Below, piece after piece: positions 43,936 to 55,900 of a DNA stretch of 64,000 nucleotides (within the stretch, counting starts at the first letter, position 1; each line of letters opens with the position of its first letter). The notes beneath the pieces were generated by a model that saw only the letters and a list, made by a program, of their open reading frames with translations, was not told where the DNA came from and did no database searches. The position numbers and the translations under genes are program-made. This DNA is from Roseovarius faecimaris (GTDB taxonomy: Bacteria > Pseudomonadota > Alphaproteobacteria > Rhodobacterales > Rhodobacteraceae): assembly GCF_009762325.1 (NCBI RefSeq), contig NZ_CP034348.1:564501-628500 (forward strand). Direction: 5' to 3'.

Positions 43936-44266
43936 GGGTATGCTCCGTATCAGGGCAGTCCGCGCAGCATTCGCGCAGCAGGAATTCCGACAGCTGGCGC
44001 AGCTCGTCATAGGCCACCGCCGCGCAGATGATCGACCGGCCCTTGCGCTCCTGCCGGACCAGCCCGGCCTGTGTCAGGATCTTCATGTGATGGGTCAGGG
44101 TCGAGCCGCTCACACCGCAGCGTTCGCCCAGCGTTCCGATCCGCAGCCCCTCGGGCCCGGCGCGCACAAGGGTGCGCAGCACGCTCAGGCGCTGTTCCGA
44201 GCCGAGCGCGGCAAAGGTCGAGGCCGCAAGGGCCAGGTCGAGATCGGGACTCACTGTCTGTTTCAT
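43928..44266 (-). CDS. ArsR-family transcriptional regulator
   Basis: Winged-helix repressor of 112 residues. The helix-turn-helix reads L-G-E-R-C-G-V-S-G-S-T-L-T-H-H-M-K-I-L, followed by a wing (R-Q-E-R-K-G-R-S-I). The C-terminus is Cys/His-rich (E-C-C-A-D-C-P and H-T-H), a likely metal(loid) sensor. ATG at 44266 is chosen because an upstream in-frame start would lie inside the operators. It overlaps the permease it presumably controls. Confidence 0.88.
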   Translation of the reverse strand: MKQTVSPDLDLALAASTFAALGSEQRLSVLRTLVRAGPEGLRIGTLGERCGVSGSTLTHHMKILTQAGLVRQERKGRSIICAAVAYDELRQLSEFLLRECCADCPDTEHTHG

Positions 44267-44356: not shown

Positions 44357-44390
44357 TTTTGTACAAAACAGGGGGGTATTTTGTACAAAA
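44357..44390. promoter_or_regulatory. Two TTTTGTACAAAA palindromes plus a half-site before the UDG-like gene
   Basis: TTTTGTACAAAA occurs at 44357-44368 and 44379-44390, 22 bases apart, followed by GTACAAAA at 44392-44399, right up to the start of the UDG-fold gene. The spacing of about two helical turns suggests an operator. The binding protein is unknown. Confidence 0.55.
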
Positions 44391-44404
44391 CGTACAAAAT
44401 TCTC

Positions 44405-44992
44405 ATGCCTCAGATTGCCGATCAGATCCGCGCCTGCCGCCTTTGTGCGGACCGCTTCGCCGCGACCCACACGGCCCATGAGCCGCGCCCCGTTGCGTGG
44501 TTTCGCTCCTCCGCGCGGGTGCTGATCGCCGGGCAGGCGCCGGGGATGCGGGTGCATCAATCCGGTGTGCCTTTCGATGACCCGTCCGGCGACCGTCTGC
44601 GCGACTGGATGGGCGTGAAACCTGCTGATTTCTATGACAAATCCCGCGTGGCCATCGTGCCTATGGCGTTTTGTTTCCCCGGTTATGACGCCAAGGGCTC
44701 GGATCTGCCCCCGCCGCCGATCTGTCGCAGGACATGGCAGGCGGATGTCATGCAACACCTTGAAAAGGTTGAGCTAACCCTGCTTGTCGGTGGATATGCG
44801 CACAAACATCACCTGCGCGTCAAAACCTCCGTCACCGCCACTGTCGCGGCCTGGCGCGACCATGCGCCACGGGTCTTTGTCTTGCCGCACCCCTCCTGGC
44901 GCAATACCGCTTGGCTCAGGAAAAACCCGTGGTTCGAGACCGAGCTTTTGCCGGTCCTCCGTGATCAGGTGCGAAAGGTGCTAAATGGTTGA
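44405..44992 (+). CDS. Uracil-DNA glycosylase-fold protein
   Basis: Protein of 195 residues with the UDG superfamily fold: an N-terminal Cys pair (C-R-L-C), the first motif I-A-G-Q-A-P-G (equivalent to GEAPG) and the C-terminal L-P-H-P-S-W-R-N (equivalent to H-P-S). The catalytic nucleophile typical of family 1 is not evident, so DNA glycosylase activity is only inferred. ATG at 44405 is chosen; an in-frame TTG at 44381 lies inside the operator palindrome. No clear ribosome site. It overlaps sseB by 8 bases. Confidence 0.72.
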   Translation: MPQIADQIRACRLCADRFAATHTAHEPRPVAWFRSSARVLIAGQAPGMRVHQSGVPFDDPSGDRLRDWMGVKPADFYDKSRVAIVPMAFCFPGYDAKGSDLPPPPICRRTWQADVMQHLEKVELTLLVGGYAHKHHLRVKTSVTATVAAWRDHAPRVFVLPHPSWRNTAWLRKNPWFETELLPVLRDQVRKVLNG

Positions 44993-51225: not shown

Positions 51226-52377
<1,152 letters not shown>

Positions 52378-52522
52378 TCACGCAGATAAGCATCAAACTG
52401 CCACTTGGCTGGTCGGTCGGGGGCGGCGGTCGCGATGTTAACGATGTCTTTACCTTTGCATGGATCGGCGCGGTCCGGCGGCGTATTTTTGACCGGCGGA
52501 ACGTGAAGGAGGGACAGGCGGG

Positions 52523-52834
52523 ATGGACCCGGTGCGATTTTTGCTGAGCACAACAGTGGCCCTCATGGCCGGGTGCAGCACGGTACCCAATGGCCCGGTA
52601 GCGCGCAGCTATGACCTGAGCTTTGTGCATCCTGCGCCTCATGCCAGTTACATCCAGGTCACGCCCGGATCCCCGGGCGCAGCTCTGCCCGCCCCGCAAG
52701 AGATCACCAGCCGCGACTTTGCCCTCTATCTGCGTGCAAACACAGGCTGCACGGTGGATGCGGCCCGCCGCGCCTCGGTGATTGGCAGTCACACCGTACC
52801 GGCAGGCTACATGGTGCCCATCGCCTGCCCCTGA
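52523..52834 (+). CDS. Small hypothetical lipoprotein
   Basis: Protein of 103 residues: short signal peptide with lipobox L-M-A-G-C (Cys18), then a Pro/Ala-rich domain with Y-I-Q-V-T-P-G and a Cys pair (N-T-G-C-T and I-A-C-P). Strong ribosome site (AAGGAGGGA) 8 bases before the ATG. I do not recognise the family. Divergent from mreB, upstream of the radical SAM operon, which has its own promoter. Confidence 0.68.
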   Translation: MDPVRFLLSTTVALMAGCSTVPNGPVARSYDLSFVHPAPHASYIQVTPGSPGAALPAPQEITSRDFALYLRANTGCTVDAARRASVIGSHTVPAGYMVPIACP

Positions 52835-52867
52835 TTCACCCCTGATCCAAAGGCGTCACGACGCCCC

Positions 52868-52903
52868 TTGTCAGCCGAACGGGTTGGAACATATAGTGAA
52901 CAA
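52868..52903 (+). promoter_or_regulatory. Sigma-70 promoter with embedded LexA box; likely leaderless start
   Basis: TTGTCA (52868-52873), 18-base spacer, TATAGT (52892-52897). The -10 lies inside GAAC-ATATAGT-GAAC (52887-52901), a perfect alphaproteobacterial LexA box (GAAC-N7-GAAC). The ATG of the radical SAM gene begins at 52904, 7 bases after the -10, where transcription should start. No ribosome site is present. Confidence 0.72.
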
Positions 52904-54139
52904 ATGGTTCAGATGTCCCTCGATAAGAAGCTGGCAATCCTGTCGGATGCGGCCAAGTATGACGCCTCCTGTGCGTCCTCAGGCTCCACGCGGCGCGACT
53001 CGCGGGGTGGCAAAAGCCTTGGGTCGAACGAGGGCAGCGGCATTTGCCATGCCTATGCCCCCGACGGGCGCTGCATCAGCCTGCTCAAGATCCTGATGAC
53101 CAATTTCTGCATCTATGACTGCGCCTATTGCATCAACCGCGTGTCTTCGAATGTGAAACGCGCCCGCTTCACCGTCGATGAGGTGGTGCGGCTCACCATC
53201 GAGTTCTATCGGCGCAACTATATCGAGGGGCTGTTCTTGTCATCCGGCATCATCCGGTCGCCCGACGCCACGATGGCCGACATGGTCGAGATTGCCCGTA
53301 AACTGCGCGAAGAGGAAAATTTTCGCGGCTATATCCACCTCAAGACGATCCCCGACGCGGCGCCTGAACTGATCGAACAGGCCGGCCGCCATGCCGACCG
53401 TCTGTCGATCAATGTGGAACTGCCGACCGATGCTGCGATCAGGCGGCATGCGCCCGAGAAAAACCCCGAGCAGATCCGCCGCGCCATGGCCGATATGCGT
53501 CTGCGCAAAGAGGCGGCGAAGGACCGCACCCATACCGGCCGCCGACCGCCGCGCTTTGCCCCTGCGGGACAATCCACGCAGATGATCATCGGGGCAGATG
53601 GCTCGACCGACGCGACCATTCTGGGTCAGTCCACCCGGCTTTACTCCAGTTACAAGCTCAAGCGGGTCTATTACTCGGCCTTTTCTCCGATCCCCGACAG
53701 CTCTGCCAAGCTGCCGCTGATCCGCCCGCCCTTGCAGCGCGAACACCGGCTGTATCAGGCCGATTGGCTGCTCAGGTTCTACGGGTTCGATGTGACCGAA
53801 ATCACCGCCGTCACACCGGACGGCAACCTTGACCTTGAGATCGACCCGAAACTCGCCTGGGCCTTGCAGCATCGCGGTCTGTTTCCGCTCGACGTGAACC
53901 GCGCCAGCCGGGAGATGCTCCTGCGGGTGCCGGGTTTCGGGGTCAAGACGGTCAACCGTATCCTGACGACCCGCCGCCACCGCGCGCTACGGTATGAGGA
54001 CCTTCTGCGCATGGGAGCGGGGATGAAGAAGGCCAGGGCATTTGTGACCGCACAGGGCTGGACGCCGGGGGCGCTGACCGACACCGCCGATCTGCGCGCG
54101 CGATTTGTCCCGCCGCCCGAGCAACTCACGCTGTTCTGA
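52904..54139 (+). CDS. Putative DNA modification/repair radical SAM protein
   Basis: Radical SAM enzyme of 411 residues of the type linked to UdgX (TIGR03916-like). The [4Fe-4S] motif is C-x3-C-x2-C (Cys69, 73, 76: C-I-Y-D-C-A-Y-C); a C-terminal helix-hairpin-helix (R-V-P-G-F-G-V-K-T-V-N-R) suggests DNA binding. The reaction is unknown. ATG at 52904 is chosen from the promoter position; an ATG at 52913 is the alternative. It overlaps the UdgX start by one base (TGATG), so the pair are translationally coupled and probably SOS-controlled. Confidence 0.85.
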   Translation: MVQMSLDKKLAILSDAAKYDASCASSGSTRRDSRGGKSLGSNEGSGICHAYAPDGRCISLLKILMTNFCIYDCAYCINRVSSNVKRARFTVDEVVRLTIEFYRRNYIEGLFLSSGIIRSPDATMADMVEIARKLREEENFRGYIHLKTIPDAAPELIEQAGRHADRLSINVELPTDAAIRRHAPEKNPEQIRRAMADMRLRKEAAKDRTHTGRRPPRFAPAGQSTQMIIGADGSTDATILGQSTRLYSSYKLKRVYYSAFSPIPDSSAKLPLIRPPLQREHRLYQADWLLRFYGFDVTEITAVTPDGNLDLEIDPKLAWALQHRGLFPLDVNRASREMLLRVPGFGVKTVNRILTTRRHRALRYEDLLRMGAGMKKARAFVTAQGWTPGALTDTADLRARFVPPPEQLTLF

Positions 54140-55566
54140 TGCAGCGCGTCTCGGTCCCCAAGATCGGCGCCTGGGAGGCATGGCGTGACGCGGCGCGGGA
54201 GATGCTCGGGGCCGGTGTGCCGCCTGAAGAGGCGGACTGGGGCGATGAGGACCGTCCGCGCGGGTTGTTCGATGCGCCCGCCACGCAGAGGCCAGCCACC
54301 GCCATGACCGTGCCGCGTGGGTTTCTGAGCCTTGCCCGGTCCGTCGTGTGGCATTCGGACCCGAGCCGTTTCGCCCGGCTCTATGCCTTTCTGTGGCGGC
54401 TGCGAGACGCCCCGCAACTCATGCAGGACAGGGGTGATGCGGACCTGGCGAAGCTCAGGCAGATGGAAAAGAACGTGCATCGCTGCCAGCACAAGATGAA
54501 GGCTTTTGTCCGCTTTCGCGAGATCGGGGACCCGGCCGCAGCGCGCCGGTCCTTTGCGGCCTGGTTCGAGCCCACGCATCACACGGTCGAGCCAACTGCC
54601 GCGTTTTTCGTGCGGCGTTTCGGCGATATGGATTGGCGGATCCTCACGCCAGATGTCTGCGCGATATTCGAGGACGGGACGCTGCGCCTTGAGGAGGGAC
54701 GAGCGCGCCCCGATCTGCCGCCCGATGCCAGCGAGGCGCTCTGGGTCACCTATTTCCGCAACATCTTCAATCCGGCCCGGCTCAAGGTGCAGGCGATGCA
54801 ATCGGAAATGCCGCGCAAATACTGGCGCAACATGCCCGAGGCGGCCGCGATTCCGGAGCTGATCGCCACCGCCCCGGCGCGGGCCCGCGCGATGCAGGCG
54901 GCTGCACCGTCCCTGCCGTCCATGCGCGCCGGAAAGGTACAGGCGCAACTGGCTGAACACGCCTCGGCCTGGACGGGGCGCGCCGACGGTCTGCCCGCGG
55001 CGATCCACGCCTGCACCCGCTGCGCCCTGGACAGATGCGCGACCCAGGCCGTACCGGGCGAGGGGCCATTGGATGCGCGCCTGATGATCGTGGGCGAACA
55101 ACCCGGCGATATGGAAGACCTTCAGGGTCGGCCGTTCGTGGGTCCGGCGGGGCAGGTGTTTGACCGGGTGGCGGAGGAGGTTGGGCTGGAGCGGCGCATG
55201 ATCTATGTGACCAATGCCGTGAAACACTTCAAATTCACCGCGCGAGGCAAGCGCCGCCTGCATCAGCGGCCCAATATGAGCGAGGTCAGGCACTGCAAAT
55301 GGTGGCTCGACGCCGAGCGGCGCCTGATCCGGCCAAAACTGATTCTCGCCATGGGGGCGACGGCGGCGCTGGCGCTGACCGGAACGGGCGGGGACATGCT
55401 CTCGCGTCGCGGCCGTTTGGAATGCACCCCCGACGGGATGCCGGTCCTGCTCACCCTGCATCCGTCTTACCTTCTGCGCGTGCCGGACGCCGCGCACCGG
55501 ACCGCAGCAATGGCACATTTCCGCGCCGACCTGGCCCAGGCGCGCGACCTTGTGCGTTCGCCTTGA
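54139..55566 (+). CDS. udgX: UdgX-type uracil-DNA binding protein fused to DUF4130
   Basis: Protein of 475 residues. Residues 1-~260 are a DUF4130 domain (F-R-N-I-F-N-P-A-R-L-K-V-Q-A-M, E-M-P-R-K-Y-W). Residues ~285-475 are a UDG-fold domain: I-V-G-E-Q-P-G-D (318-324), H-P-S-Y (441-444), cysteines for an Fe-S cluster, and the UdgX-specific loop GKRRLHQRP with His375, the residue that forms a covalent bond to uracil in the mycobacterial protein (KRRIH). It should therefore trap uracil lesions rather than release them. Confidence 0.88.
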   Translation: MQRVSVPKIGAWEAWRDAAREMLGAGVPPEEADWGDEDRPRGLFDAPATQRPATAMTVPRGFLSLARSVVWHSDPSRFARLYAFLWRLRDAPQLMQDRGDADLAKLRQMEKNVHRCQHKMKAFVRFREIGDPAAARRSFAAWFEPTHHTVEPTAAFFVRRFGDMDWRILTPDVCAIFEDGTLRLEEGRARPDLPPDASEALWVTYFRNIFNPARLKVQAMQSEMPRKYWRNMPEAAAIPELIATAPARARAMQAAAPSLPSMRAGKVQAQLAEHASAWTGRADGLPAAIHACTRCALDRCATQAVPGEGPLDARLMIVGEQPGDMEDLQGRPFVGPAGQVFDRVAEEVGLERRMIYVTNAVKHFKFTARGKRRLHQRPNMSEVRHCKWWLDAERRLIRPKLILAMGATAALALTGTGGDMLSRRGRLECTPDGMPVLLTLHPSYLLRVPDAAHRTAAMAHFRADLAQARDLVRSP

Positions 55567-55582
55567 TTTCGCTGAAAGGGGA

Positions 55583-55657
55583 TGGTGCTGCTGGGGAGGA
55601 TTGAACTCCCGACCTCACCCTTACCAAGGGTGCGCTCTACCACTGAGCTACAGCAGC
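55583..55657 (-). tRNA. tRNA-Thr (GGT)
   Basis: Complete cloverleaf on the minus strand. Acceptor stem GCTGCTG/CAGCAGC, D arm with AGCTCAGTGGTAGAGC, anticodon arm CACCC-TTGGTAA-GGGTG (anticodon GGT), T arm GGGAG-TTCAATT-CTCCC, discriminator A and encoded CCA. 75 bases including CCA. Its 3' end faces the end of udgX. Confidence 0.93.
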
Positions 55658-55744
55658 AGCGTTGTGGCGGGGTGATTAGACGCAAAACACCGCTGGTGCA
55701 AGGGCTAACTGGACCCTTTTTGCGACCTCCTGTAGAGAGAGGGC

Positions 55745-55900
55745 ATGACAAAAACCACCACGCCCAAACCAAAGCCGAAACAGGCAGCGAGCCGCGAAGA
55801 CCGCCTGAAGGCGGCGCTCAAGGCGAACATGGCGCGGCGCAAGGCGCAGGCGCGGGCGAGAGCGGGTGCCGATAAAGCCCCGGACGAGGAAAAAAGGTAG
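55745..55900 (+). CDS. Small basic protein upstream of murA
   Basis: Short gene for 51 residues, too small for many gene callers. The product is lysine/arginine/alanine-rich: a Lys/Pro N-terminus (K-P-K-P-K-Q), then an amphipathic helix [28 protein letters not shown] lies 4-11 bases upstream of the ATG, and the stop is 5 bases before murA. A protein of this kind before murA appears typical of the group. It may bind RNA or DNA; function unknown. Confidence 0.75.

Follow-up and report, generated by a model that had tools for sequence, protein, structure and literature searches.

A LexA-box promoter with a predicted leaderless start ahead of a radical SAM and DUF4130-UdgX operon in Roseovarius faecimaris

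A stretch of 64,000 nucleotides (nt) from the 3.93-Mb genome of Roseovarius faecimaris (contig NZ_CP034348.1, positions 564,501 to 628,500; hereafter the window) carries an operon coding for a radical S-adenosylmethionine (SAM) protein and for a fusion of the domain DUF4130 with UdgX, the closest named relatives of which occur in Roseobacter-type bacteria. Our analysis suggests, with a probability of roughly 70% for the explanation as a whole, that this operon is LexA-repressed, induced by DNA damage and transcribed into a leaderless mRNA, and that it has a core of the radical SAM protein and DUF4130 to which UdgX is an optional addition. The regulatory part is well supported by comparison between related loci, and the chemistry of the core is what we infer from the protein sequences. 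As SOS control of the operon has already been published, the novelty lies in the conserved leaderless geometry, of which we found no description in the excerpts of open-licence PubMed Central (PMC) articles from which the literature is cited here.

The LexA-type box at the operon start

The promoter of the operon consists of a -35 element (TTGTCA, 52868..52873; all operon features lie on the + strand) that is separated by an 18-nt spacer from a -10 element (TATAGT, 52892..52897), the latter obtained by promoter scan and lying within the spacer of a LexA operator of the type GAAC-N7-GAAC (GAACATATAGTGAAC, 52887..52901), which is predicted from motif and conservation. The ATG of the radical SAM gene follows at 52904, with 6 nt between it and the -10 element, and none of the Shine-Dalgarno (SD) tetramers AGGA, GGAG, GAGG or AAGG occurs at -16 to -4 of this ATG. 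Across 52300-55900, a single sigma-70-like site was found, that of the radical SAM promoter, where 0.5 would be expected. An earlier sequence-only reading of the window had described this arrangement, namely a perfect box enclosing the -10 element, TTGTCA 18 bases upstream and an ATG just past the -10 element without a ribosome site, and each of these elements was recovered at the positions given here.

We rejected the box by itself as evidence for SOS control, as its frequency in this genome is near chance level: GAAC-N7-GAAC occurs twice in the window versus 1.28 times expected, and 83 times genome-wide versus 67 times for the reversed pattern. The second perfect box of the window (44122-44136) lies inside the coding sequence of what looks by eye like an ArsR-like regulator and is likely a chance match. 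The case that the box at the operon start is not such a match is carried by its position and conservation.

The relatives used for this comparison comprised 182 stretches including the window, 177 of them with a match, which gave 171 unique loci. One scan, in which the best 80 named loci were kept, returned a perfect box at the operon start in 77, the remaining three having 1, 2 and 3 mismatches. Among 151 loci, which are alphaproteobacterial except for L220 (from a genome of another class), the interval from -65 to +12 around the radical SAM start holds a perfect box in 135 cases and the reverse motif in 8, compared to a box in 11 of 25,107 equally long control tiles taken from these loci. 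The loci outside this set were 20 hand-picked ones from 29 genomes of other classes over the cut-off, presumably beta- and gammaproteobacteria. Here, a perfect E. coli-type box (CTGT-N8-ACAG) was found at the start in 16 of 20 loci, the others showing 1 (two loci), 2 (one) or 3 (one) mismatches, while only 2 of 758 control tiles contained it. The operon therefore appears to keep its SOS control across a change in LexA specificity. Thus, the proposal of the sequence-only reading that the operon is under SOS/LexA control, already published for the operon elsewhere, is strongly supported by the comparison. In six loci from a different alphaproteobacterial family (f171; L195, L234, L235, L236, L239 and L240), GTTCATGATATGTTC precedes the aligned start by about 87-90 nt and is predicted to be a reverse-facing, more distant operator.

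We also inspected 82 of the 83 boxes of the genome (80 stretches and the two in the window), 30 of which have an AT-rich spacer. Next to the latter are genes that, by eye, we take to be lexA and recA, uvrA, and those for a UvrD-like helicase and for ImuB-like and MmcB-like proteins. The ATG of the presumed lexA is positioned 33 nt downstream of its box and has a GGAGGA site. Only at the radical SAM box does a forward ATG with a long open frame stand 0-3 nt downstream; at three other boxes with an ATG at this distance the frames comprise 19, 30 and 83 codons. When 100 genomes of the family were searched for GAACATA-N4-GAAC with an ATG 1-3 nt downstream, the pattern occurred 27 times in 23 genomes and its reversed control not once. 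Thirteen occurrences belong to the radical SAM gene, itself present in 20 of the 100 genomes. The remaining 14, judged by eye, are one ImuA-like start (L267), two frames of 305 and 148 codons (L274 and L278) that appear to be portions of other genes, and 11 frames no longer than 84 codons. The pattern therefore marks the radical SAM operon and not SOS genes at large.

Some of the boxes are of interest in their own right. At L267 (G035:C1:2982405), the ATG of the ImuA-like gene stands 1 nt after a GAACATAAGGTGAAC box, making it a possible second leaderless SOS gene. In L133 (G000:C2:799400-801000), a perfect GAAC-N7-GAAC overlaps an ATG with which, by eye, a PdeM-like phosphoesterase may begin, possibly another SOS gene with fused start and operator. 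The box GAACAAAAAAAGAAC of L129 (G000:C2:692804) is located upstream of a DNA cytosine methyltransferase-like gene, and that of L190 12 nt before an integrase-like gene (both by eye).

Promoter geometry and the leaderless reading

Leaderless transcripts are expected where the AUG follows the -10 element by about 6-7 nt and lacks an SD sequence, and the window operon has a distance of 6 nt and no SD. To compare this geometry between loci, we classed 134 of the 171 loci (those whose forward box is at most 80 nt away and whose start is usable) by the distance from box to start. Of the 37 unclassed loci, 36 are without a forward box in this range, and in L057 a box is present, with the in-frame start missing from the expected place.

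Class A comprises 83 loci including the window, in which the box ends 2 nt (71 loci), 3 nt (11) or 1 nt (one) before the ATG, corresponding to 6, 7 and 5 nt between -10 element and ATG. The flanks of these loci are near-random save for the operator, the letters of the -10 element and a TTG that occupies positions -18 to -16 relative to the box. Each letter of this TTG is conserved in 81-86% of the loci; the whole TTG begins at -18 in 59 of 83 and anywhere from 17 to 20 nt upstream of the box in 71. Within the box, offset 5 is T in 83/83 and offset 6 is A in 79/83. In 37 loci the frame is open only from within the box or the gap onwards, which rules out any start ahead of the box; the ATG is the sole in-frame start of the checked stretch in 33. 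Position 52868, the beginning of the -35 element, is at the same time an in-frame TTG of the radical SAM frame. A start at this codon was rejected in view of its place in the -35 element and of those 37 class A relatives. The start codon is most likely at 52904.

A second layout emerged among 29 loci with the box 9-20 nt before the start, where the -10 letters of the box are less frequent (T at offset 5 in 18/29, A at offset 6 in 19/29). In twenty of these, sorted by eye as class B (Paracoccus, Acetobacter and Pseudorhodobacter among others), the -10 element is separate from the box and lies downstream of it, and 19 of them have a TTG directly ahead of the box. The distance from the best -10 hexamer to the ATG is 6 nt in 11 loci, 7 nt in two, 8 nt in five and 9 nt in two. 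Class C, with 18 loci (8 of the 11 named ones from Rhizobiaceae), has the box over the -10 element at 8-11 nt from the ATG; L058 belongs here by the first-ATG rule and looks like class B by eye. SD-like sites were absent from all 20 class B loci, all 18 class C loci and all four loci with a larger gap, and present in 8 of 83 class A loci, where they are formed by letters of the operator itself. The nine other loci with a gap of 9-20 nt had an SD-like site in four cases and a GTG start in two. On a quick tree of 167 of the 171 radical SAM proteins, the class B label required 5 changes, at least 3 of which are forced by well-supported branches. The layout has therefore switched more than once, with the distance from -10 element to ATG still at about 6 nt.

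Together, the short gaps of classes A and B and the missing SD strongly support a leaderless, LexA-repressed mRNA as the best reading of this promoter, and with it the suggestion of a probable leaderless mRNA made in the sequence-only reading. In Sinorhizobium meliloti, all mapped leaderless transcripts begin with AUG (PMC3616915), and a leaderless lexA mRNA has been described in Mycobacterium tuberculosis (PMC2897130). Like the latter, the operon described here would be an SOS function with start codon and transcription start at the same position, although in another gene and another phylum.

The radical SAM/DUF4130 core and UdgX

The radical SAM gene (52904..54139, 411 amino acids) belongs to the NCBIfam family TIGR03916 (rSAM_link_UDG), as its product scored 583.2 bits against a curated cut-off of 343.5 and has the CX3CX2C motif of the SAM cluster (C69, C73 and C76; 53108..53131), the cysteines of which are invariant. 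Invariant in 167/167 aligned rows are C23, C48, H49, C57, C69, C73, C76, H145 and E172. C23, C48 and C57 are thus three cysteines beyond the SAM cluster and N-terminal to it, and the region that contains them and H49 (52970..53074) suggests, as a guess, a site for an auxiliary Fe-S cluster. The structural model of this protein is of moderate quality (pLDDT 73.8, residues 18-83 below 50). In a search against solved folds with this model, lipoyl synthase, AprD4, HydE and biotin synthase were the first matches listed (best E 2.3e-4), and spore photoproduct lyase was neither among the 50 listed of 1217 matches nor among 23 weak profile matches. A helix-hairpin-helix (HhH) region is predicted at 53840..54016 by the Pfam family HHH_3 and weak matches to ComEA and RuvA. 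The window copy matches HHH_3 below the cut-off (E 0.0066), and all 48 members in an alignment (A4; 48 rows used of 51 planned) match at E <= 1, the best at 6e-6. This agrees with the radical SAM protein with HhH named in the sequence-only reading.

The second gene (54139..55566, 475 amino acids) shares a TGATG stop/start overlap (54137..54141) with the first, which points to translational coupling; such a 1-nt overlap of the two frames is deduced for 99 of 168 loci. The gene had been taken for UdgX alone. A UdgX domain is indeed present (54847..55539), but it forms the C-terminal part of a fusion whose DUF4130 half (54364..54840) had remained unnamed. The DUF4130 domain scored 197.2 bits for TIGR03915 (cut-off 112.25) and 122.4 for PF13566 (cut-off 27), the UdgX domain 320.5 bits for TIGR03914 (cut-off 189.95), and both are thus members of their families. 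The UdgX motifs are intact, with GEQPG from residue 319, KRRLH at 371-375 (55249..55263) and HPSYLLR from 441. This half matches the solved UdgX structures from Mycobacterium smegmatis (PDB 6ajo, 8iie) with E 4.4e-46, sharing the motifs GEQPG, KRR(I/L)H and HPS, and differs from them in being fused behind DUF4130 and placed in an operon with TIGR03916. As had been proposed, KRRLH is thus predicted to be the covalent-trapping loop, ending at the trapping residue His375. The model of the fusion protein is confident (mean 91.8), its DUF4130 part included.

A search downstream of the radical SAM gene detected UdgX in 138 of the 171 loci, as a fusion with DUF4130 in 136 of them; the trapping His likewise aligns in 136 of the 138. 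In L058 and L071, its place is taken by Pro (KNRVP and GRRIP), possibly representing non-crosslinking forms of UdgX. Among the 33 loci where UdgX was not found, L062 and L214 end at or near a contig edge and L199 is truncated, leaving about 30 operons with radical SAM protein and DUF4130 and without UdgX. Whole-genome searches covered 22 genomes from among these cases and that of L199. DUF4130 exceeded its cut-off in 22/22, and UdgX in three: G306, the genome of L199, has the fused UdgX beside the locus, and G326 and G551 have a UdgX elsewhere. UdgX over the family cut-off was thus absent from 19 of the 21 genomes with truly UdgX-less operons, 13 of which contain weaker matches that may represent other uracil-DNA glycosylase (UDG) families. 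The absence of UdgX from about 30 operons and the constancy of DUF4130 suggest that the radical SAM protein and DUF4130 form the core and that UdgX is an optional C-terminal addition. The earlier idea of damage-induced uracil handling by the pair thus finds partial support. An affiliation with anti-phage defence was considered and discarded, as PADLOC returned 0 families for either protein at E <= 0.01.

Based on these findings, we propose the following model. LexA, expected from motif and position to bind GAAC-N7-GAAC, would cover the -10 element and block the polymerase as long as it is intact, and its RecA-driven cleavage after DNA damage would free the promoter. Judging from the geometry, with the A of the AUG 6 nt past the -10 element, transcription would start at this A (52904), the radical SAM frame would be translated without leader or SD, and the DUF4130-UdgX frame would follow by coupling at TGATG. 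The working core would be the radical SAM enzyme with its DNA-binding HhH together with DUF4130, both of which are constant in the examined proteobacterial loci. The HhH would bring the enzyme to damaged DNA, and DUF4130 may act as its DNA-engaging partner. Most likely, the core acts by radical chemistry on damaged bases or sugars of the DNA, possibly with help from the putative auxiliary Fe-S cluster at C23/C48/C57. Where present, the tethered UdgX would, as suggested by the solved members of its family, excise uracil at the same site and cap the abasic site covalently via His375.

A more far-reaching version, which we regard as tentative and rather doubtful, is that the core is a new kind of DNA-acting enzyme, in which a radical SAM protein carries an additional N-terminal Fe-S cluster at C23/C48/C57, as in lipoyl synthase or methylthiotransferases, and performs with DUF4130 a so far undescribed reaction on a DNA lesion, with UdgX as a bolt-on cap for a uracil or abasic product and with an obligately leaderless mRNA. 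If true, such an mRNA would keep the pair translated when damaged cells disfavour leadered messages. With an optional UdgX, the hunt for the reaction moves from uracil to the radical SAM/DUF4130 core, for which six invariant cysteines are now named. On the regulatory side, an operator doubling as -10 element, with transcript and protein predicted to start at the same base, would have been kept despite changes in promoter layout, and leaderless SOS expression can be tested here directly by 5'-end mapping.

Alternative explanations and genomic context

Several observations speak against this model or limit it. Sixteen of the 151 loci lack a forward box at -65 to +12, and the related loci are not independent of each other, a kinship for which no statistic fully corrects. 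As start we used the first in-frame ATG downstream of the box wherever there was one, a rule biased towards ATG and short gaps, and other possible starts exist upstream in 39 and downstream in 23 of 83 class A loci. The T at offset 10 is present in only 51 and the full TAnnnT in 48 of the 83, and the -10 letters inside the operator may also serve LexA affinity. The -10 element of class B was chosen as the best hexamer, the gap of 8-11 nt in class C implies a leader of about 2-5 nt, and four loci have a gap between box and start of more than 20 nt. In the window, transcription may start 1-3 nt upstream of the AUG, and a second in-frame ATG at 52913 would give a 9-nt leader. We consider the latter start unlikely because 33 of the 83 class A relatives offer no start other than the first ATG in the checked stretch. 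For the proteins, the auxiliary cluster is a guess because the part of the model around the cysteines is of low quality. No useful match for the DUF4130 fold came from sequence or profile searches against solved structures, and none of 50 listed viral matches could be assigned to DUF4130, those with names being mostly UDG or polymerase proteins.

Of the explanations that compete with the model, a chance box with the operon outside the SOS regulon would fit the high frequency of GAAC-N7-GAAC in this genome. It is so hard to reconcile with the conserved box at the operon start, the E. coli-type box in other classes and the SOS assignment published elsewhere that it can practically be dismissed. 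A conventional leader, arising from a promoter further upstream or from use of the second ATG, with LexA acting on a leadered mRNA, would be in line with the presence of ATG 52913 and with some other-class loci that have room for a leader, partly with an SD-like GGAG (L253 and L256). We consider this improbable, given the gap of about 6 nt between -10 element and ATG in two promoter layouts, the lack of SD and a region upstream of the box in which little is conserved besides the TTG at the -35 place. Direct reversal of thymine photoproducts caused by ultraviolet (UV) light is what the label 'SplB-like radical SAM photolyase' would imply. SplB is likewise a radical SAM enzyme acting on DNA, as predicted here, and is linked to SOS in some bacteria, and UV damage would fit SOS induction. 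However, the moderate model did not bring up spore photoproduct lyase among the listed fold or the profile matches, and SplB is not known to have an equivalent of the three invariant N-terminal cysteines. Moreover, SplB (COG1533) and COG4277 are listed separately in PMC8565304. We therefore regard photoproduct reversal as rather unlikely, even though SplB-like proteins have been tied to SOS in PMC3765255 and in PMC3323433, where splB of alpha- and betaproteobacteria is predicted to be SOS-controlled. The former also ties DUF4130, as a predicted mutagenesis-related enzyme, to SplB-like proteins and uracil glycosylases.

The operon could also be centred on UdgX, which would be induced by SOS to act against uracil or ribonucleotides misincorporated by error-prone polymerases, with the radical SAM protein assisting or resolving the UdgX-DNA adduct. 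Consistent with this, the UdgX motifs are intact and UdgX is almost always fused to DUF4130 where it occurs, and a role against misincorporation has been proposed for the operon (PMC8565304). The chemistry of UdgX has been described and its physiological role called largely unknown (PMC10359453). Yet about 30 operons retain radical SAM protein and DUF4130 without UdgX, nearly all of the corresponding genomes that were searched whole have no UdgX over the cut-off, even if weaker matches may stand for other UDG families, and two loci have Pro in place of the trapping His. These points make a UdgX-centred operon unlikely, if still worth keeping in mind.

The SOS assignment published elsewhere concerns a COG1573-COG4277 operon in the SOS response of Bacteroidetes, for which base excision repair was suggested, and SOS-regulated counterparts in Verrucomicrobia and Alphaproteobacteria (Caulobacter) are cited there as well (PMC8565304). 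By the COG numbers matched from its text, this is very likely the same gene pair under a LexA-type repressor. Induction dependent on RecA, together with LexA binding, is reported for such related operons (PMC8565304 and the work it cites). Unlike in our model, it is described in the excerpt as a two-gene base excision repair system, with no leaderless geometry, -10 element embedded in the operator or optional UdgX. LexA control was also predicted for CAC3343-CAC3344 of Clostridium acetobutylicum (PMC3828012), which, unlike the host described here, is a Firmicute.

The radical SAM gene is patchily distributed, being detected in 60 of 295 family genomes at E 0.001, in 58 of them over the cut-off. 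The neighbours in the window (mreB, mreC, a small frame, murA and its neighbour, and hisD) were not found near the operon in other loci, the copy from the window's own genome (L094) excepted (177 loci with flanks of up to 4 kb, beyond which hisD, the farthest, mostly lies). A genome of the same genus (G278) is without the operon. The operon therefore seems to move or to be lost together with its promoter. A YchF-like gene (by eye) lies downstream in 15 named loci, probably reflecting plain synteny. In the window, the operon is adjoined by a tRNA-Thr gene (55583-55657, - strand), and synteny with the same-genus genome stops at the 3' end of this tRNA. The genome contains three PF03167 matches in all, one being UdgX; a further gene of the uracil-DNA glycosylase superfamily (PF03167, 80.9 bits) is located 8 kb from the operon at 44381-44992 on the + strand.

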